From positions 1-63,286 of the forward strand of contig SOER01000016.1 in assembly GCA_021646405.1 (NCBI GenBank): 63,286 bases of DNA. Direction: 5' to 3'. Shown here piece by piece: positions 49,136 through 63,286 of the stretch. Numbering within the stretch: the first letter of the stretch is position 1; each line of letters opens with the position of its first letter. Under the pieces are notes generated by a model. It did not search any database. It was not told the DNA's origin and saw only the letters and a list, made by a program, of their open reading frames with translations. This stretch comes from Candidatus Loosdrechtia aerotolerans (GTDB lineage: Bacteria > Planctomycetota > Brocadiia > Brocadiales > Brocadiaceae). The position numbers and the translations under genes were made by a program.

Positions 49136-50281
49136 TTATTCAATAACCACCTTGCCCTTTTCCAGCTTTAATCCATACTGCTTGCTGCCGTAAGATCCGG
49201 CAGATGCTATGGTATAGATAGGGGTAAGATTTTTGTCACAGATGCCGTCTGCTATTTTTCTTCTCACCTTACTGATAGTCTGCCGCAATATTTTTGACGG
49301 GACTCCCCCCCGCTCTCTGTACTTTTCATACAACTCCTTGCCCTTCAAAGAGTTCTTGCCAAATATCTTTTCATACCATGCGACCAGGGCATTCAATGCG
49401 TCCCTTCCCATCAAACACCTTATTGAGATATAACAATCAACGCATTCGAGGCAGTATTTTCTGTCCGGATACTGGCAGTGATTCAGCTTTTGATCAATGA
49501 GTATCAGGTAAAGGGATAGTTCCATCGGTGTAAATTCAATAGTCTTGTCACCAATCTCAAGCACCCTGTCACACAGATTCACCTTCAGAGATTCCTGCAC
49601 CAGCGCAGTGTCTATTCCTTCCTGCCCCTGACGGACAAGTTCCCGGAAGCTATTGCTGCCCAGAAGCAATTTTTCCTTCAGACGGATAAACGGCAGTTCT
49701 GCCAACTGAACACCAGCCATGTCTGTTGTCATTTTTTTCACGGTCCCGTCAGGCATCCTGCACGGTATCAATTCCGGTTCTTTTGGAGGATAGAAAAATT
49801 CCGGATTACCTTCAAATTCAGGCCTTACCAGGACGTGATACAGCTTATCCCACGGCCTGCCAAAGAGTTGCAGGGCACCGCCAAGATAGAATCCCATAGT
49901 CTTACGCCCTCCGGCGATAGAACAGTGAAGCCGTGTCGTTGCGTCTCCTGCCTTTTCTCTGATAAATCCTGTTATGATATCTCCGGCTGCCTCATTCTCT
50001 TCGTTGTCTCTTATATCTTGCAACGGAGCACCGTCGCGGCCTTTTATTACTATAAGACAATCCTCATCAAAGCGTATCTGAGGGAGCTTGTATTCCTCAA
50101 TAAGTTGTGTAAGAATATTTCGTCTGATGAGGGTATCGGCAATCAGTTGTTTGCCGTAAGAAGTAGTTATGATGTAGAGTTCCCTGATAAATACAGGAGG
50201 GATGTTTCTGGATAGTGCATAAATTGTTTCAGTAACAATCTGTGGGGTGGCACCTGCTACGCAAATAAGAATGTCTTTCAT
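49136..50281 (-). CDS. CRISPR-associated CARF-HTH protein, NE0113 family
   Basis: This 381-aa protein has a CARF domain (about 1-190) that begins ILICVAGATPQIVTETIYAL and has the ligand loop SIAGGRKTMGFYLGG, the hallmark of the NE0113 CRISPR-associated family. A winged-helix-like C-terminal part (about 215-381; FTPMELSLYLIL, TISKVRRKIADG) surrounds a cysteine cluster (CLECVDC, later IRC). It is probably a regulator that responds to cyclic oligoadenylate from a type III effector. It lies at the left edge of the CRISPR island, with no partner gene in an operon. Confidence 0.8.
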   Translation of the reverse strand: MKDILICVAGATPQIVTETIYALSRNIPPVFIRELYIITTSYGKQLIADTLIRRNILTQLIEEYKLPQIRFDEDCLIVIKGRDGAPLQDIRDNEENEAAGDIITGFIREKAGDATTRLHCSIAGGRKTMGFYLGGALQLFGRPWDKLYHVLVRPEFEGNPEFFYPPKEPELIPCRMPDGTVKKMTTDMAGVQLAELPFIRLKEKLLLGSNSFRELVRQGQEGIDTALVQESLKVNLCDRVLEIGDKTIEFTPMELSLYLILIDQKLNHCQYPDRKYCLECVDCYISIRCLMGRDALNALVAWYEKIFGKNSLKGKELYEKYRERGGVPSKILRQTISKVRRKIADGICDKNLTPIYTIASAGSYGSKQYGLKLEKGKVVIE

Positions 50282-50952: not shown

Positions 50953-51068
50953 TAGCGTTCTGCAGAGAATATTCAACAGATAAAACCGAACAGAATATGA
51001 AAGAGTACGTTTTAAAATTCCATTCTGGTATGTGCTAATATGTTCGATTTCATCCGTGGAGTACTATA
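50953..51068 (-). mobile_element. IS630-family terminal fragment inserted in a CRISPR repeat
   Basis: Read on the minus strand this matches the 47.2-kb IS630 terminus over about 115 bases. Its outer end, TACTATA, abuts ATACAGGTCTTCTTTCCTAT, the 3' portion of a CRISPR repeat, exactly at that repeat's internal TA. This is what TA-targeted insertion into the repeat would produce. Confidence 0.7.
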
Positions 51069-51152
51069 ATACAGGTCTTCTTTCCTATACATTCCCCTCC
51101 TGGGAGGGGTTAGGGGTGGGTAAAATACGTGTCGCAATCCCTTCTAATACAG
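51069..51152. CRISPR. Fossil CRISPR unit left of array 1
   Basis: A 3' half repeat of the array-2 type (51069-51088), a 42-base spacer-like segment and a 5' partial repeat (51131-51152, starting GTCGCAATCC) form one relic unit. The spacer core CATTCCCCTCCTGGGAGGGG recurs in a second relic near 60.7 kb. Confidence 0.7.
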
Positions 51153-51533: not shown

Positions 51534-54010
51534 CAGGTCTTTTTTCCTATGCATGAAATAACTTTTATTGTACATACAAAAGAAGTCGCAATCCCTTCTA
51601 ATACAGGTCTTTTTTCCTATTCTTGTGAAGAGTATCATGTTGTATCAATATTGTCGCAATCCCTTCTAATACAGGTCTTTTTTCCTATCAAGTGATTAGC
51701 TATATATTAGAGTGCAATCGGGTCGCAATCCCTTCTAATACAGGTCTTTTTTCCTATGAAATCGAAATCTGGGAAGAAATCCAAATCTGGGTCGCAATCC
51801 CTTCTAATACAGGTCTTTTTTCCTATCAGCGTCAAAAATACGGGTTTCCTGTAATAATATGTCGCAATCCCTTCTAATACAGGTCTTTTTTCCTATTACT
51901 CGCCCAGACAACTGGGAGTACCGGTTAGGTCGCAATCCCTTCTAATACAGGTCTTTTTTCCTATCCGGAATACCAGACAGCATGGAAAGAAGCGTAGTCG
52001 CAATCCCTTCTAATACAGGTCTTTTTTCCTATCTCCATAACATGTCCCCCGCGTGAATGGCTATGTGTCGCAATCCCTTCTAATACAGGTCTTTTTTCCT
52101 ATAGGTGTATCTGGTGGGTTTAAGGCTCTTTCTGGCGTCGCAATCCCTTCTAATACAGGTCTTTTTTCCTATTCTGGGAAGAAATCGAAATAGTTTTATT
52201 TTGCCAGTCGCAATCCCTTCTAATACAGGTCTTTTTTCCTATGCAGAAGCACTTGCAAGATGCCTCTTGAAAGGAGGTCGCAATCCCTTCTAATACAGGT
52301 CTTTTTTCCTATAAATAATAAGGAGCACATTATAAATGCGAATGCACGTCGCAATCCCTTCTAATACAGGTCTTTTTTCCTATAATTACTGAAAAGCCAA
52401 ATTGAACTGGCGTGTTCGGGTCGCAATCCCTTCTAATACAGGTCTTTTTTCCTATGTTTTTATTTGGTAAGTTTGTGGGGGAAAACAAGTCGCAATCCCT
52501 TCTAATACAGGTCTTTTTTCCTATACAATGCATTCATAAAGAATGTTATTATCCATGGTCGCAATCCCTTCTAATACAGGTCTTTTTTCCTATGAGATTG
52601 TGGAAGAGGGTTAGAACCACGGAACACACGTCGCAATCCCTTCTAATACAGGTCTTTTTTCCTATGCAGTTAAAAAAGATTACCTTTGTGACACGAGTGC
52701 GGTCGCAATCCCTTCTAATACAGGTCTTTTTTCCTATCCTGGAAGGACTACCAGATGACTTGGAAGTCGGAAGGTCGCAATCCCTTCTAATACAGGTCTT
52801 TTTTCCTATTAGAATTTATTAATGAATTGTGCAAAACCTTAAGTCGCAATCCCTTCTAATACAGGTCTTTTTTCCTATACCAGCCCAGACAATTGGGTGT
52901 ATCGGTTAGATGAAGGTCGCAATCCCTTCTAATACAGGTCTTTTTTCCTATATACAAATTGAAGTAATATCGATTTCCGGTTCAAGTCGCAATCCCTTCT
53001 AATACAGGTCTTTTTTCCTATAGTATGGGAAATGGAAACTAATCACTATAATTGTCGCAATCCCTTCTAATACAGGTCTTTTTTCCTATGAAAGCAATTA
53101 TTACAACTACGTATGTTTTATTCCTGTCGCAATCCCTTCTAATACAGGTCTTTTTTCCTATGATGGAAGGAGTTCTGAACGAAGAAAATCTTCCAAGTCG
53201 CAATCCCTTCTAATACAGGTCTTTTTTCCTATTGAAGGAAGAAGTAATTATTGTTGACGGTTGGCGTCGCAATCCCTTCTAATACAGGTCTTTTTTCCTA
53301 TGAGATGGAAAATTTCGTTTCGATTCTGCAGGAAGCGTCGCAATCCCTTCTAATACAGGTCTTTTTTCCTATGAATAAATGAAAGAAGAAGTAGTTTTTG
53401 TTAGCGGTGTCGCAATCCCTTCTAATACAGGTCTTTTTTCCTATTAGAAAGGAGATAGAATGTTAGTATTCATAGACTTAGTCGCAATCCCTTCTAATAC
53501 AGGTCTTTTTTCCTATTGCAGACCTCAACCAGGAAGAGCGGGAATTTCTAGTCGCAATCCCTTCTAATACAGGTCTTTTTTCCTATTCGAGTATTGCGAG
53601 CAGCCATGAAATCCAAAAAGGAGTCGCAATCCCTTCTAATACAGGTCTTTTTTCCTATGGATATATCACAGGTTTATATGTATTAGTAAAACACGTCGCA
53701 ATCCCTTCTAATACAGGTCTTTTTTCCTATGACCTGAGACAGCTATGTGTTCAGATTGTTGCTGTCGCAATCCCTTCTAATACAGGTCTTTTTTCCTATG
53801 AATATGTAAACGAAAACAAAATAGAATATTCATAGTCGCAATCCCTTCTAATACAGGTCTTTTTTCCTATGGGCCGATAGCTCTGGAGGTGTGCAGACCT
53901 TCGGAGTCGCAATCCCTTCTAATACAGGTCTTTTTTCCTATTTTGATTTTTATTTTATCATCTTAATTCAGAAAGTCGCAATCCCTTCTAATACAGGTCT
54001 TTTTTCCTAT
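51531..54010 (-). CRISPR. CRISPR array 1: 35 full 36-bp repeats plus one partial
   Basis: The repeat begins GTCGCAATCC and ends CTTTTTTCCTAT on the plus strand; 35 intact copies run from 51585 to 54010 and a 3' half copy lies at 51531-51550. Spacers are 32-37 bases and repeat starts are 68-73 bases apart. On the minus strand the repeat ends ATTGCGAC, like the ATTGAAAC 5' handle of mature type I/III crRNAs, so I infer minus-strand transcription. The degenerate copy then lies at the leader-distal end, and the cas operon lies upstream on the same strand. Many spacers read as sense coding sequence on the plus strand; see findings. Confidence 0.97.
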
Positions 54011-54113
54011 AGCACCCCCTTCCCTTTCTCACGTATTATCAAGTACTTACAAAACCGGTTTTTCATTATATCAGATGTTTTAAAAGTTAGCATGGAAATA
54101 TTTCTGAAATATT
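54011..54113 (-). promoter_or_regulatory. Predicted leader of CRISPR array 1
   Basis: This AT-rich gap lies between the array's first transcribed repeat and the stop of cas2b. A tandem palindrome GAAATATTTC (54095-54104 and 54106-54115) lies about 85 bases from the array and runs into the end of cas2b. A related tandem palindrome lies at 59859-59879. The promoter itself is not obvious. Confidence 0.55.
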
Positions 54114-54389
54114 TCATAGGAATATCTCCACCCCTTCCGGAATCCTGTCTCCCTGACCAAGCACTACACATCGAATATTGGATGGCAGCGGGTATATCCG
54201 TATATCGTCTTTGTTGCTGTCAATTATACCTTTAAGTTCCTCTTTCAATCCTGTTAACTCCTGCCAGGTAAGTTTACAAAAGAATACCGAATACTGTATA
54301 TGCGTTCCGATACCCTTCAGCGTTTTAAATACCCGCCTTAGTCTTTTTGCATCGGTAATGTCATAACAAACGATATAATTACTCTTCAC
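54114..54389 (-). CDS. cas2: Cas2 endoribonuclease-fold protein, second copy (cas2b)
   Basis: This 91-aa protein has the Cas2 ferredoxin fold with the conserved aspartate in YIVCYDITDAKRLRRVFK and the strand IYPLPSNIRCVVLG. Cas2 bridges Cas1 dimers during spacer integration. It follows cas1b by 3 bases and is the last gene before array 1. It differs clearly from the other Cas2 encoded 2 kb upstream. Confidence 0.9.
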   Translation of the reverse strand: MKSNYIVCYDITDAKRLRRVFKTLKGIGTHIQYSVFFCKLTWQELTGLKEELKGIIDSNKDDIRIYPLPSNIRCVVLGQGDRIPEGVEIFL

Positions 54390-54392
54390 TGT

Positions 54393-55229
54393 CTATAGAT
54401 ACTGATTGAATTCCCCACCGAGTCTCAGTTCTCTGATAAGTTCAAACATACCGTCAATAATATGTTCTGTTAAGTTTACGACAGCATCCTTTCTGTTTTC
54501 AAACCGCACTGCTATTGCCTTTACATCTTCTGACGACATCTCTTTGTTTTTACGATGTTCAGCGCCTTTTTTTCCCTGGAAGAATTGAATTGACTGAATG
54601 TCTATCTCAGGACCGAGTACATGGCAAACATCCAGGGCAAGGCCAAAATCTCGCCTCCTGTGCATCACCCCCATGTGGGGGTCGAATTCCGACGCTATGA
54701 GTTTGCTTACAACCATTTCCAGAAAGACTGCGGAAATGGCATTACGAATATAGTGAAACCGTTTGCGATACGGTGCCGTGACGTTATCCATTACCCGCTG
54801 ATACTCTTCTTCTTTGAGGCCTACCGTAACATAGCTGTCGGGTATCTGCCTTTTTAAAAGCCTTTTCAGGACGGTGATCTGAACCCTCTGACGATATGCT
54901 CTCAAAAAGGTCATAAACCGCTTACTGTTATAATCTGACTCAAGGAATATCCTTTGTGTTTTATACTGTCCTGGCAGGTGGTGTTTGTACGGTAGTGTTA
55001 CCGCTATCTGGCTGCCTTTCCTGTCGAAGAATGTTATGGGAATATTGTTTTGGGTAAAGAGGGTTATCAGGCTGGTATCCAGTTTGATATTCCCTACAAT
55101 TACCACCCGCTGAATCATCCTCGCAGGCACACGCCTGCCTGACTTCTCCCCTTCCTTCACCACGATGGAAGGTCCGTCTCTTATTACGCTGAGTGTTGTG
55201 TTTTCATTCAGATAAAGTGTCTTTTCCAT
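54393..55229 (-). CDS. cas1: Divergent Cas1 homologue (cas1b)
   Basis: This 278-aa protein has a clear Cas1 N-terminal beta domain (MIQRVVIVGNIKLDTSLITL) and a helical domain with FDPHMGVMH, keeping the metal-binding His190. Asp200 in LALD is kept, but the next acidic position of canonical Cas1 is His203 (DVCH instead of DLIE). The usual EGxA motif is not recognisable; Glu140-142 are the only candidates. It is about 40 aa shorter than its neighbour. Its start overlaps the end of cas1a by 26 bases. It may be a structural partner in a mixed integrase or a diverged second enzyme. Confidence 0.88.
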   Translation of the reverse strand: MEKTLYLNENTTLSVIRDGPSIVVKEGEKSGRRVPARMIQRVVIVGNIKLDTSLITLFTQNNIPITFFDRKGSQIAVTLPYKHHLPGQYKTQRIFLESDYNSKRFMTFLRAYRQRVQITVLKRLLKRQIPDSYVTVGLKEEEYQRVMDNVTAPYRKRFHYIRNAISAVFLEMVVSKLIASEFDPHMGVMHRRRDFGLALDVCHVLGPEIDIQSIQFFQGKKGAEHRKNKEMSSEDVKAIAVRFENRKDAVVNLTEHIIDGMFELIRELRLGGEFNQYL

Positions 55230-56166
55230 CCATGACCCTCACTGAAATATCCCTTGCCCTCCTGGCAATATCTTTTCTAATCGTTCCGGCCCATTCCTCA
55301 TAAACGGAATAAAACTTCTTCCTGGCATTTTTCTTTAAATAAACCCCTTCTTTCTCCTGCACAAAATCTTCTGAGGTACATTTTCCGTCTTTAAACATCT
55401 CCCATACAAACCGGTCTGTCATCGGCCGAAATAGCTCAATCAGGTCGCAGGCAAGGGAGTCCCGTCCGTAATCAAAACAATGATAAAAACCAATCGTAGG
55501 GTCAAGCCCCGCAACCTGTATCTCCCTTACCGCCTCATAATGAACCAGCGTATAGCAAAGTGAGAGCATTGCATTTACCGGGTCTTTCGGAGGTCTCCTG
55601 GTGCGGGTGTTAAAATCCAGGGATTCAGGGAATAGTCTGGTAAACGCAGAAAAATATGCATTCGAAGCAGCGCCTTCATATCCCCTCAGACTCTCAAGGG
55701 TATCACATTTTGAAGCGATGCTGTCAGCAATATTCTCAAGAGTGCAGAAAACACTGTAAAAAGTTTCCTTCGGGTTTACCTCTCCATTGTTTTTTATTGC
55801 CTCTCCGAGAAATTCACTTTGATGCCCGATCTTCCCGAGGACAATTTCCTTTGATATTGCTATGGCAAAGTCCCTGTTGAGAGATTTTTCATATTGTTTG
55901 ACCCTCAGAATGCTGTTGTTATGGAGACGTCCGGTAAGGATACCCCGGTACTGGAGTCCTCTGCCTGACAGGAATATAACGCTGCTTCCGTTATCTGCAA
56001 GTTTGTTGAGTACGCTTGTTTCTACAGTATTATTCCCAACAATTATCACTCTGTTAAGCGGACGTACGGGAACAATGCCTTCCCTTTTTCCGTCCAGGTA
56101 AAAGGCAATTGATTCACCGTCAAGCTTTATGTGATAACCCTTTCTGTCAATATATAATGTACCCAT
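55204..56166 (-). CDS. cas1: Canonical Cas1 integrase (cas1a)
   Basis: This 320-aa protein shows all Cas1 active-site positions: Glu164 in GYEGAASNAYF, His229 in LDPTIGFYH, and Asp241/Glu244 in ACDLIELFRP. The NFxTRxRRPPKDPVNA-type segment is also present. It should integrate spacers with Cas2. It lies 8 bases after cas2a and overlaps cas1b, so the order is cas2a-cas1a-cas1b-cas2b. Confidence 0.95.
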   Translation of the reverse strand: MGTLYIDRKGYHIKLDGESIAFYLDGKREGIVPVRPLNRVIIVGNNTVETSVLNKLADNGSSVIFLSGRGLQYRGILTGRLHNNSILRVKQYEKSLNRDFAIAISKEIVLGKIGHQSEFLGEAIKNNGEVNPKETFYSVFCTLENIADSIASKCDTLESLRGYEGAASNAYFSAFTRLFPESLDFNTRTRRPPKDPVNAMLSLCYTLVHYEAVREIQVAGLDPTIGFYHCFDYGRDSLACDLIELFRPMTDRFVWEMFKDGKCTSEDFVQEKEGVYLKKNARKKFYSVYEEWAGTIRKDIARRARDISVRVMDGKDTLSE

Positions 56167-56174
56167 GGTATCCT

Positions 56175-56456
56175 TTATCCGAAATAAAAAAACTCAGGAT
56201 CTTTTGGGGGTAATGCGGTACCCATGGTATGAGACCTGCTTCTGCCGTCAAGGGGGAAGATATGAATCCGGTCAGTGCTCTCATCAATAATATGTGATAC
56301 ACCGGTGATAACCTCCCTCAGTTCTCCTTGTGTAAGGAAACATTCAAAGACGGACTTCTGACCGCCCGTGCTGAATCCCTTCAAAAAATACCGCAGCCGG
56401 TTAAGGCGTTTTGGTGTACAAATATCGTATGCCACAATATAAAGATCTCTTTGCAT
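56175..56456 (-). CDS. cas2: Cas2, first copy (cas2a)
   Basis: This 93-aa protein has the Cas2 fold with the conserved aspartate in YIVAYDICTPKRLNRLRYFL, the KSVFECFLT strand and IHIFPLDGRS. It is the first gene of the adaptation module and lies immediately upstream of the canonical cas1. Confidence 0.92.
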   Translation of the reverse strand: MQRDLYIVAYDICTPKRLNRLRYFLKGFSTGGQKSVFECFLTQGELREVITGVSHIIDESTDRIHIFPLDGRSRSHTMGTALPPKDPEFFYFG

Positions 56457-56592: not shown

Positions 56593-57585
56593 TCATGCTT
56601 TAATAAAATACTTTCCCAGTCCGAAACTTGTTCCCTTTCCGACGTGAAGTATTTCCCCTGCCTTAATGAATGGATAAAAGGGTGAAACGATACCTTTGTA
56701 TACGATATCTCCCACAAATCCGCCGAGCTTCATCCTTGTATCCTGTCTGCGGGAATACCGTTCCCAATCGCGCCACTGAAGGTTCGATACCTTTATACCT
56801 GTTGTACGTGCCTCATCTATAAGTATGCGGTGATATCCCTCATTGAACAATCCGCTGTCTTCAGAATTATCTTTACAATAGTAGTGCCTGAGTAGAAATA
56901 ATCGTCTCAAAAGCTGTCTGATAAAGATATGAAATTCCAGGTCAATAATAAGTTTACCGCTGTACTTAAGACGGGTAGGTGTGAGAAATCTCACGGTAAT
57001 TTCTTCGGCAGTGTTCTGTACTGTGTCTGGGATCCTTCCCTCCACCGCTGAAAGGATACTTTGGTTTAAATCTATACACTCATCGCCAAAGGGTTTAACC
57101 TTACGGGTTTTAGAACAGTAGATTAATTTAGAATCATCCTCTGCATCAACCGTATATACCTCCCGGAGCTGGCAACTGCCTCTTCCTCTGCCAATGCCAT
57201 TTTTTCCCAGCAGGTCAAAGGTGTAAATAAAATAGGGCAGGTATTGTATTGCATCGCCAATGAGAACCAGGCCAAGAGAGAACGTTTGTCCCGTAAGATA
57301 CCTTTGTTTCTCTTCTTCAGGTGGTTCTATGACAAACGGATGAGGAATGGAATTTACCCTGCCAAGTATATTAGCCTCATCCGGAGAGTGGGATTCAAAG
57401 ATGTATGCATAGGCGCATCTTTGTTTAAGCAGGCAGTCACGGCAGTCTGTCTTCTTCAGGGTACAGGCAACTTTTTTGAACTGAACGCCAAACGCCCCTC
57501 TGAAGGTAGAGCCTTTATAGGAAGGAAGGTGTATTTCCTCTTCTGCTTCCATAATAAAGGTAAAGCGTTTGTAGGGTATTTTCAT
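56593..57585 (-). CDS. cas6: Cas6 crRNA-processing endoribonuclease
   Basis: This 330-aa protein resembles the PF10040 Cas6 group. The C-terminal part has WRDWERYSRRQDTRMKLGG and HVGKGTSFGLGKYFIKA, with the glycine-rich loop of RAMP proteins, and the N-terminal part has SYKGSTFRGAFG. A cysteine cluster (CRDCLLKQRC) may bind zinc. It should cut the array transcript to leave an 8-nt ATTGCGAC tag. It lies between the CARF-HEPN gene and cas2a. Confidence 0.88.
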   Translation of the reverse strand: MKIPYKRFTFIMEAEEEIHLPSYKGSTFRGAFGVQFKKVACTLKKTDCRDCLLKQRCAYAYIFESHSPDEANILGRVNSIPHPFVIEPPEEEKQRYLTGQTFSLGLVLIGDAIQYLPYFIYTFDLLGKNGIGRGRGSCQLREVYTVDAEDDSKLIYCSKTRKVKPFGDECIDLNQSILSAVEGRIPDTVQNTAEEITVRFLTPTRLKYSGKLIIDLEFHIFIRQLLRRLFLLRHYYCKDNSEDSGLFNEGYHRILIDEARTTGIKVSNLQWRDWERYSRRQDTRMKLGGFVGDIVYKGIVSPFYPFIKAGEILHVGKGTSFGLGKYFIKA

Positions 57586-57668: not shown

Positions 57669-58901
57669 TTAAATGTTTAACCTGGGAAATACAATTACCT
57701 CATCTTCACTGAATATATTAAGACCCAGGATGAACTCCCTGAATTTCTTATAGGTATTGTCACTTGCGCATGCAAATCCGTGAACAAGATAAGAATTATT
57801 TCTCTGTGATTGAATCTGGCGAAAATGTGACAGACGTTTTTGAAATTCCTTACCCAAATCATCCTCCAGCGCTTCGAGTAATTCAAATGCGGCATTTTGT
57901 GATACCTTTATTTTCCCGTCTCTCCTGTCTTTGTATTTCCTGATAAATTCATCACTCACCTGTTGTGGTATTTTCTCTTCAATCACACTACCCGTGTCTA
58001 TCCCATGGTTATTCAGTAACCTTTCCTGGGCAAGCATTTCAACCAGTCTGTAAAGTCGTACAACAGCGTCATCTATCTTCCCTTCCTCAAAACGCCTTTC
58101 AGCATTTGAGAATATATCCAGGGCGAATAACCTGTCGGGTTTCCGTTGCGTCCCGGAAAGAAACTCGAGTTGGGGTTTTAACTGAAGGGTAGCCCTGGCA
58201 AATAACCGTATCCTTTCGTCATCCGTTTCCAGAAGTTCTTCTATCCTTGCCCTTTCAAACTTGCCTACAGCCTCGCCGTGCCTGAAAATATCCCAGCTAT
58301 AATATCCGTCAATAATAAAACCCAGTTTTTTAAAAATACTCTTGTGACTGGTGTTTTTTTCTAATATATCATCGACAAGTGCCTTTGCCGCCTTGAACTG
58401 ATAGGTATTGAACAGGAATGATATCTTCTTCCGTTCATCTATGGCAAGGAAGTCCCACGGGTTGACGCTTTCGTAGACCTCTTCTTTACCGTCAACTACG
58501 GTTCCGACACCGCCCTTTGTCCTCTCTGTACCTCCTACGTAAGAAAAGTTGAATCCATGGGCAACGGCGGAAAGGGAGAGGGCAACAGACATATTCTTTG
58601 TCCCTCCGGTATAATCCACAATAACCTCATCGCTCCGAAAACCTTTCGACAGCACCCTTTTTACCGCCTCTTCTGCCTTACTAAAACAGTGGTACAGGTC
58701 GTTGACCTCGTCGGACAGGGTTATTTCGCTCTTTATGGTATATTTTGCCTCCTGTATCTGTATCCCCTTTTTAATCTCCGTCACGTGGTCGCAGGTATCC
58801 TGGGAGGCGAAGAAGGACACGAATTCCGGCCGGTATTTGGTAATGGATTTTATAATCGGCGCCGGCGTTCCGCCCACAGAGATTATCATTGCCCTGATCA
58901 T
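57669..58901 (-). CDS. CARF-HEPN ribonuclease, TIGR02710/Csm6-like
   Basis: This 410-aa protein has an N-terminal CARF domain (MIISVGGTPAPIIKSI; ligand loop DYTGGTKNMSVALS near 96-109) and a C-terminal HEPN-like domain with the catalytic pattern Arg-x6-His in RNNSYLVHG (about 367-374). Such proteins are activated by cyclic oligoadenylate made by Cas10 and degrade RNA. It is the first gene of the minus-strand cas operon. No cas10 lies in the window. Confidence 0.85.
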   Translation of the reverse strand: MIRAMIISVGGTPAPIIKSITKYRPEFVSFFASQDTCDHVTEIKKGIQIQEAKYTIKSEITLSDEVNDLYHCFSKAEEAVKRVLSKGFRSDEVIVDYTGGTKNMSVALSLSAVAHGFNFSYVGGTERTKGGVGTVVDGKEEVYESVNPWDFLAIDERKKISFLFNTYQFKAAKALVDDILEKNTSHKSIFKKLGFIIDGYYSWDIFRHGEAVGKFERARIEELLETDDERIRLFARATLQLKPQLEFLSGTQRKPDRLFALDIFSNAERRFEEGKIDDAVVRLYRLVEMLAQERLLNNHGIDTGSVIEEKIPQQVSDEFIRKYKDRRDGKIKVSQNAAFELLEALEDDLGKEFQKRLSHFRQIQSQRNNSYLVHGFACASDNTYKKFREFILGLNIFSEDEVIVFPRLNI

Positions 58902-60027: not shown

Positions 60028-60165
60028 TTACAAACCTGAACCCTCTGATATAATGATCTTATCTACAGAGTCTTCTGTGTTTGAAGGCTGTGTAATAACA
60101 ACCTTGTACACTTCTTTCGACAGCATCTTCCTTACTATCTCTTTATCATCTGAGAAAAAACTCAC
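60028..60165 (-). CDS. Small coupled ORF downstream of the repeat protein
   Basis: This 45-aa frame begins with a GTG that overlaps the preceding stop (GTGA), and AGGAGG lies about ten bases upstream. It reads VSFFSDDKEIVRKML to IIISEGSGL. I recognise no family. Coupling and the ribosome site argue for translation, but the length argues for caution. Confidence 0.4.
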   Translation of the reverse strand: MSFFSDDKEIVRKMLSKEVYKVVITQPSNTEDSVDKIIISEGSGL

Positions 60166-60608
60166 TCCCCTTTTCCCTCCTTATCCTTCTTCTCCTCCGA
60201 AGATGATGAAGAGAACGGTCTCACAAAACCCGCCCTACTCCACCTGTTATTAAACCTCTCAAACACCTCGTCATCATCTCTTCTTTCAATGAACTCTTCC
60301 CTCTCCCGTTCTTCGTCAAATACCTCAAATCTGTCCTTTCCTCTCCTCTCTACAAACCCTCTCCTATTCCACCTCTTATCGAATAACTCTATCCTCCCAT
60401 CCCTTCTCTTCTCTGCAAACCCCGTCCTGTTCCAATCCTTATCAAACAACTCCAACCTTCCACTCCTCTCATCCTCCCTCACAAACCCTGTCCTATTCCA
60501 CCTCTCGTCAAACACCTCATACTCTCGTCCCACGACGGAGGAGGTTGTTGACCAGGTGGAGAGGAGTATGCAACATGGGAATAACAACAGTAATAAAGGT
60601 CTTTTCAT
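60162..60608 (-). CDS. Exported tandem-repeat protein of unknown function
   Basis: This 148-aa protein has a hydrophobic N-terminal segment (LLLLLFPCCILL) as a signal peptide or anchor, then five ~21-residue repeats with the pattern (E/L)-FD-x-x-WNR-x-GF-x-E-x-R. The first three are nearly identical; the fourth has lost the WNR core. The C-terminus is a serine and charge-rich tail. The pattern resembles small beta-blade repeats that build beta-propeller or beta-flower folds, but I do not recognise a family. It lies in the CRISPR island between vapBC and array 2. Confidence 0.6.
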   Translation of the reverse strand: MKRPLLLLLFPCCILLSTWSTTSSVVGREYEVFDERWNRTGFVREDERSGRLELFDKDWNRTGFAEKRRDGRIELFDKRWNRRGFVERRGKDRFEVFDEEREREEFIERRDDDEVFERFNNRWSRAGFVRPFSSSSSEEKKDKEGKGE

Positions 60609-60710: not shown

Positions 60711-60815
60711 ATCGTAATCCCCTCCAATACAGGTCTTCTTCCCATACATTCCCCTCCTGGGAGGGGTCAGGGGTGGGTGAGTCACAATCCCTTCTAATAC
60801 AGGTCTTCTTTCATA
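60711..60815. CRISPR. Fossil CRISPR unit left of array 2
   Basis: Two degenerate repeats (60711-60745 and 60781-60815), several bases off the array-2 repeat, enclose a 35-base spacer whose core CATTCCCCTCCTGGGAGGGG also occurs in the relic near 51.1 kb. It is a leader-distal remnant or a duplicated piece. Confidence 0.7.
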
Positions 60816-60854
60816 CTTGAGGGAACCAGGAACGGGGCCGATCCCATATGCATT

Positions 60855-61202: not shown

Positions 61203-61414
61203 CACATGAAAATTCCTATACATTCAAGCTCAGGAACAATGCTGTACTTTTTCTGATCCTCACACAAAGTCACCAAAACACCAGGATATATGGTATGTCC
61301 CCATTCTTGCCATTCTATCCTTCATCATTCTTTATTCTTTTTATTCTTAGTGCCTCCGTGTCTTTGTGTGATGAAGATACCTTAGCTTGATGAATATGGG
61401 GCCAGTCCCCGTCG

Positions 61415-63136
61415 TCGCAATCCCTTCTAATACAGGTCTTCTTTCCTATTAGAATATCTTTCAGGCACTCCCCAAGAAAGGTCGCAATCCCTTCTAATAC
61501 AGGTCTTCTTTCCTATATCGTAATTTATTACATTTTTAACATTGTTATTAGGTCGCAATCCCTTCTAATACAGGTCTTCTTTCCTATGGGGCATATCATG
61601 TCTGATGCACCCCCTGGAGGTTTACCGTCGCAATCCCTTCTAATACAGGTCTTCTTTCCTATGTATGAATGAGGCAATCCGTGCCGGTAAGAACCGTCGC
61701 AATCCCTTCTAATACAGGTCTTCTTTCCTATACCATCACGAGAAGATAACGCAACAACAGAACGTCGCAATCCCTTCTAATACAGGTCTTCTTTCCTATG
61801 GAAAAAAACTGTTGAGGTTGAGGAAAAATCAATGTCGCAATCCCTTCTAATACAGGTCTTCTTTCCTATAAGAAATAAAGACTTGTCAGTGGCTGAATTC
61901 ATTGTCGCAATCCCTTCTAATACAGGTCTTCTTTCCTATATAAAAAATTAAACAAAGAAGGAAAGGCAGAAGGGTCGCAATCCCTTCTAATACAGGTCTT
62001 CTTTCCTATAACAGAGAGAAGCTGGATGAATATGGCTTGGAAGCGTCGCAATCCCTTCTAATACAGGTCTTCTTTCCTATGCCTTGATGAGTGGAAAGGG
62101 TTGGAATCTTCCCAGGTCGCAATCCCTTCTAATACAGGTCTTCTTTCCTATCTTCTGTCTCATAGACAGGTGTTATGTTACCTGTCGTCGCAATCCCTTC
62201 TAATACAGGTCTTCTTTCCTATTCTAGAACAAGGAAGTATGGCATCACAAGTAGTCGCAATCCCTTCTAATACAGGTCTTCTTTCCTATGATTCATTAGA
62301 CGCATTAATTCCAAGAGTTGCTTTGTCGCAATCCCTTCTAATACAGGTCTTCTTTCCTATGGGATGGAGGGGATCCTGACGCATGACGAATTGCCGTCGC
62401 AATCCCTTCTAATACAGGTCTTCTTTCCTATGAAAAGGAGCAAGTTAAAACGCTTCTTAACCTCGTCGTCGCAATCCCTTCTAATACAGGTCTTCTTTCC
62501 TATTCGAAACACTGCCGGATGAAGAGGAAATACGAAGTCGCAATCCCTTCTAATACAGGTCTTCTTTCCTATGCGGCCTCATTGAGCCTATAAGGATTCT
62601 AAAAGCATGTCGCAATCCCTTCTAATACAGGTCTTCTTTCCTATGCCAGAAAGCAATAAGATTATCTGGATTCTGCTGTCGCAATCCCTTCTAATACAGG
62701 TCTTCTTTCCTATAGATAGGAAATGGACAAAAAAAATGCTTTCTGGCGTCGCAATCCCTTCTAATACAGGTCTTCTTTCCTATCATACTAACTCTGGCTT
62801 AAGATTCTTGTATTATAGTCGCAATCCCTTCTAATACAGGTCTTCTTTCCTATCTAGAAATGGGATCAATGGCATCTCAAGTAATCTCGTCGCAATCCCT
62901 TCTAATACAGGTCTTCTTTCCTATCATACTAACTCTGGCTTAAGATTCTTGTATTATAGTCGCAATCCCTTCTAATACAGGTCTTCTTTCCTATGTTGCG
63001 CCAGTGACAGATTATTTTCTGCCACTGGCGTCGCAATCCCTTCTAATACAGGTCTTCTTTCCTATTTAGAAGATTTAGAAAATTTCTTCGATGGTACGAT
63101 GTCGCAATCCCTTCTAATACAGGTCTTCTTTCCTAT
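61415..63136 (-). CRISPR. CRISPR array 2: 25 repeats of 36 bp
   Basis: The repeat is that of array 1 except position 28 (C instead of T, giving CTTCTTTCC). There are 24 spacers of about 30-39 bases. Direction is inferred as minus from the ATTGCGAC end. All repeats to the right end look intact. Two spacers (62784-62817 and 62925-62958) are identical. The expected leader side is cut by a transposase gene 30 bases after the last repeat. Confidence 0.97.
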
Positions 63137-63166
63137 AATAATGAAGGAAATAAACATATTTAGGAC

Positions 63167-63286
63167 TTACGCATTTGCTAATAAATAATGAGTAACAGCA
63201 GACCTGGTAAGAGAAGCTTTTTGCTCATACCAGGGAATTCGTTCTTTGATTCTTCTTGTTTCCAATTTTACAAAGGCAAGAAAAGA
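63167..63286 (-). CDS. C-terminus of a transposase (partial, runs off the window)
   Basis: The 39 visible residues include SFLAFVKLETRRIKERIPWY and end LTRSAVTHYLLANA. This fits the C-terminal end of IS701/IS4-like transposases, where a WYE-like segment precedes the last helix. The stop is followed by TTAGGACTTACGCA on the plus strand, probably the element's terminal repeat. It lies on the leader side of array 2 and is transcribed toward the array. Confidence 0.55.
   Translation of the reverse strand, partial: SFLAFVKLETRRIKERIPWYEQKASLTRSAVTHYLLANA

Follow-up and report, generated by a model that had tools for sequence, protein, structure and literature searches.

CRISPR Arrays and cas Genes of the Window

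The window, a stretch of 63,286 nucleotides from Candidatus Loosdrechtia aerotolerans (contig SOER01000016.1), contains two CRISPR arrays, A and B, with cas genes on the minus strand between them. Array A (51585-54010, minus strand) consists of 35 identical 36-nt repeats and 34 spacers of 32-37 nt. The repeat unit, GTCGCAATCCCTTCTAATACAGGTCTTTTTTCCTAT, is letter-identical in 35/35 copies, which amounts to 1260 nt without change, and the regular identical repeats, the similar lengths of the spacers, and the adjoining cas1, cas2, and cas6 genes identify a CRISPR array. Two observations place the leader at the right end and make the minus strand the one that is read: the leader-side flank (54011-54150, minus strand) recurs in conserved form next to homologous arrays of two related genomes, and the opposite end has partial repeats (51067-51152). 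On the minus strand, the last letters of the repeat are ATTGCGAC, a sequence resembling known type I/III 5' handles. Relic repeat-spacer-repeat units were observed at 51067-51152 and 60724-60816, and both carry a near-identical insert, ATTCCCCTCCTGGGAGGGGTYAGGGGTGGGT. Since the core of this insert, CCCCTCCTGGGAGGGG, occurs eight times in the genome, a dispersed palindromic element may sit inside these decayed CRISPR units.

Array B (61414-63136, minus strand) comprises 25 repeats, a one-base variant of the array A repeat, and 24 spacers. Its flank (63137-63286) has no counterpart of the leader that is conserved next to array A; the leader may have been lost or cut off by an inserted element, and the growth of array B has perhaps ended.

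Six cas genes, all on the minus strand, follow array A. The first four, cas2 (54114-54389, PF09827), a diverged cas1 named cas1' (54393-55229, partial PF01867, with the PADLOC entry 'Cas1, diverged variant, second in the loci' among its matches), a full-length cas1 (55204-56166, PF01867), and a second cas2 (56175-56456, PF09827), form an adaptation module of two Cas1 and two Cas2 genes, in which one Cas1 looks degraded. They are followed by cas6 for crRNA processing (56593-57585, PF10040) and a gene for a Csx1/Csm6-type CARF-HEPN protein (57669-58901, PF09670). Cas1' is present in six relatives besides the Loosdrechtia genome, with 65-79% identity, and the module with a second Cas1 and a second Cas2 recurs in other genera of the family. 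In the three aligned copies, Cas1' keeps the His and Asp region and misses the segment that holds GYEGAASNAYF in Cas1, i.e., the expected catalytic Glu; Cas1' perhaps acts as a non-catalytic partner of the other subunit. The six cas genes include no reverse transcriptase, neither fused to Cas1 nor next to it, and no effector genes were found next to array A. Beyond the other end of array A, a protein of the NE0113 family with a CARF domain (49136-50281, minus strand) is likely a further cyclic-oligoadenylate responder. In addition, a 148-aa protein (60162-60608, minus strand) begins with a signal-like segment, contains several units of the FDxxWNRxGF type, and has no Pfam match.

Spacers 5 and 19 of Array A

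Spacer 5 (51897-51928, 32 nt) and spacer 19 (52879-52915, 37 nt), both on the minus strand of the array, read TRPDNWEYRL and TSPDNWVYRLDE, respectively, on the plus strand. The coordinates, the spacer sequences, and both peptides agree with the preliminary description of this DNA. The two spacers share a 31-nt overlap with 26/31 identities. The five differences fall on one first, one second, and three third codon positions of the plus frame, and three of the five differing codons are synonymous (ACT/ACC, AAC/AAT, and TAC/TAT), as had been pointed out.

We compared the ungapped match score of the pair with 200 arrays simulated by a first-order Markov model with the same spacer lengths and neighbor-base make-up. 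Pair 5/19 scores 20.4, and the best score in any simulated array is 16.2, so that 0/200 simulations reach the observed value; a Gumbel fit gives P of about 1e-5 with the entire spacer set considered. The similarity is thus beyond chance. The boundaries had been described as one base apart, which is true of the left edges only; the right edges are 6 nt apart, with spacer lengths of 32 and 37 nt.

Related Pairs and an Exact Duplicate

Three more same-strand pairs pass the same simulation test, namely 24/26, 3/9, and 46/55, all on the minus strand of the arrays, whereas no opposite-strand pair among the spacers of both arrays rises above chance. Spacers 24 (53233-53265) and 26 (53373-53408) encode KEEVIIVDG and KEEVVFVSG with a score of 18.0, and spacers 3 (51758-51790) and 9 (52173-52206) share WEEI[Q/E]I with a score of 16.8; both scores exceed 200/200 simulations. 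Spacer 26 also contains TAAATG, possibly a stop/start overlap. In array B, spacers 46 (62223-62253) and 55 (62854-62888) score 14.6, a value reached in 1/200 simulations, and a fourth-best pair at 14.6 or above occurs in 0/200 simulated arrays. The peptides of this last pair, LEQGSMASQV and LEMGSMASQV, are written with two synonymous codons, including Ser AGT versus TCA, and show the clearest conservation at the protein level. Two other pairs, 6/17 (EYQTAWK and DYQMTWK) and 14/27, look suggestive, but their scores are not above the simulation.

The left edges lie within 1 nt of each other in two of the four significant pairs (5/19 and 46/55), and the other two pairs show shifts of 7 and 10 nt. 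If edges are simply taken as uniformly distributed, this left-edge coincidence has P of about 0.05, or about 0.18 when both edges are counted, and it is borderline among the four pairs.

Spacer 54 (62784-62817, minus strand) of array B is letter-identical to spacer 56 (62925-62958), with identical edges, and is a true in-array duplication. Set against this counter-example, the invariant repeats and the unlike edges and lengths of spacers 5 and 19 indicate that these two were taken up independently; on the letters of the array, there is good support for their independent acquisition from one sequence that existed in two diverged versions. In-array mutation as the origin of their difference is excluded for practical purposes. 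Spacer 19 as a mutated copy of spacer 5, or as a chance match, therefore has a negligible probability, although duplication does happen in array B, since the repeats are identical, the lengths and edges differ, and no simulated array reaches the score of the pair.

Strand and Reading Frame

The preliminary description read the source gene as TxPDNWxYRL. This is the best of six frames for pair 5/19 and a likely reading, but the reverse frame, NRYSQLSGR and NRYTQLSGL, also has three of the five changes at third positions, with two synonymous changes and one conservative change. NRY[S/T]QLSG would thus fit nearly as well as TxPDNWxYRL, and the gene behind spacers 5 and 19 is for this reason not established. 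We chose the plus frame because of the purine bias across the arrays and the pairs with a clearer frame (46/55).

The plus strand is purine-rich in 45 of the 57 distinct spacers of arrays A and B (P 1e-5), and the same bias is seen in 33/41 spacers of the homologous arrays of relatives (P 4e-5). It is not seen in the I-B array that this genome also carries (4 versus 6), of which only 11 spacers were read. Counts of open frames fail to separate the strands (55 versus 54 spacers), but the purine content does. A ribosome-binding-site-like string before an ATG appears in four spacers on the plus strand and in none on the minus strand; in spacers 11 (52313-52347) and 27 (53445-53480), such a string is followed by ATG on the plus strand, as if both had been taken across gene starts. 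The base composition, an indirect sign of the coding strand, points to a plus strand that is mRNA-like across the arrays; crRNAs from the minus strand would then be antisense to mRNA, a requirement of type III immunity.

Search for the Source Sequences

No convincing protospacer or homologous family was found in the viral contigs, the phage records, the own genome and 58 relatives, or 84,980 genomes. Within the own genome and the 58 relatives, the spacers match the array itself and are otherwise at chance level. Searches of every spacer against the phage records by blastn gave no significant match, nor did tblastn of the 5/19 peptide, which has little power at 12 residues. Degenerate motif scans of the viral collection, covering both frames of 5/19, pairs 46/55, 24/26, and 3/9, and spacers 28 and 33, yielded nothing coherent, and the individual matches were out of frame or within unrelated proteins. 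One viral contig, L063, carries PDNWVYRL in a frame of 679 aa; it was rejected as a source, as the similarity to the spacer peptides does not continue into the residues flanking the motif and 0/14 spacers tested match this contig. The scan of genome contigs gave 11 matches, all in unrelated or short frames. The missing protospacers reflect the poor sampling of anammox phages and speak neither for nor against the reading in the preliminary description.

Host and CRISPR Systems Elsewhere in the Genome

The genome is that of an anammox bacterium, as guessed in the preliminary description: it contains hydrazine synthase alpha. With two Cas10 loci on other contigs, neither adjacent to array A, a Cas10-type effector is available in the genome. 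Contig C5 carries III-B Cmr genes together with an I-B type cas5 and a different CRISPR array, and contig C44 carries Cas10/Cas5 genes of the III-D type. Also on C44, a reverse transcriptase gene is located directly before another cas1-cas2-cas6 set (L082:7034-9463), with the III-D type Cas10 about 14 kb away. RNA-derived acquisition is conceivable for this second system, because the reverse transcriptase stands beside cas1 near the III-D Cas10.

Origin of the Related Spacers

We favor, with a probability of about 0.7, a recurrent, selection-retained sampling of homologous sites in diverged invaders by an array that serves type III immunity with antisense crRNA. Spacers 5 and 19 would have been acquired at separate times from homologous sites in two diverged versions of an invader, most likely in a stretch that codes for protein in related phages or in mobile elements of another kind. 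Their crRNAs would be copied from the minus strand, antisense to the mRNA of the invader, and may guide a Cas10 complex (III-B and/or III-D) whose genes lie on other contigs. Spacers that target a small number of transcripts would be kept for the protection that they give, and because protective spacers are retained, the same genes of successive related invaders would recur in the array. With three further pairs in the same arrays, 5/19 has the look of an ordinary CRISPR record of viruses related to each other; as one of four, it is explicable by known CRISPR behavior.

The earlier statement that the spacers came from related genomes and not from mutation in the array stands as far as independent uptake is concerned. 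Because no protospacer was found, however, related genomes are indistinguishable from two paralogues in one invader. A single invader genome that supplied both spacers, from paralogous copies or from a segment repeated in it, fits the sequence data equally well, and the internal repeat inside spacer 3 means that repeated segments do occur in the sources. We nevertheless regard this origin as unlikely, since paralogues would be needed separately for each of the four pairs, and the distance of 14 array positions between spacers 5 and 19 means that they belong to different acquisition times.

An arms race, in which the invader mutated to escape spacer 5 and spacer 19 was then taken from the escaped descendant, would agree with the position of spacer 19 closer to the leader, which makes it the younger of the two, and with the almost complete overlap of the two sites. 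The changes themselves make such a course quite improbable: three of five are synonymous and zero are deletions, whereas the escapers from Thermus type III immunity are deletions (PMC7515739), and the divergence of 16% suggests relatives that have long been separated.

The shared left edges of 5/19 and 46/55 could also be expected if a resident, partly matching spacer steered the uptake to the same site in a priming-like manner. This has a very small probability in our estimate, as the coincidence (P about 0.05 to 0.18 under the uniform model) is accompanied by shifts of 7 and 10 nt in the remaining two pairs. The chance that the double cas1-cas2 module of this type III-linked array is guided to half-matched sites, a homology-guided re-acquisition, appears similarly slim.

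Comparison with Known Systems

In a large survey, about two thirds of type III spacers were found on the coding strand (PMC8482600). In a Thermus type III system without a reverse transcriptase, spacers are acquired from both strands, and the strong bias in strand and position results from later selection (PMC7515739). Array A is like these coding-strand-biased arrays in that its spacers apparently come from the mRNA-sense strand and would give antisense crRNA, and its recurring targets fit the selection of protective spacers described for type III (PMC7515739). Compared with those arrays, the strand of array A is deduced from base composition instead of mapped protospacers, and the effector genes that it may use are on other contigs. 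The repeated sampling is already expected from the published type III behavior.

The type I-B locus of Candidatus Kuenenia stuttgartiensis, in which 0/210 spacers had a match in NCBI nt apart from the three genomes that carry them, likewise combines an anammox host with long arrays (PMC7709395). Array A instead has its own repeat, a Cas6, and the double cas1-cas2 module, and this adaptation module is more unusual than the spacer pair.

Carrying several spacers against homologous sites of related phages is general CRISPR behavior. The same is seen here, but it is known only through the similarity of one spacer to another. From such pairs at homologous sites, the succession of related invaders can be read for a host whose viruses are largely unsampled. 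Their conserved peptides, e.g., LE[Q/M]GSMASQV, provide handles for recognizing anammox phages, and both the strand of an array and the coding constraint on its sources can be read without protospacers.
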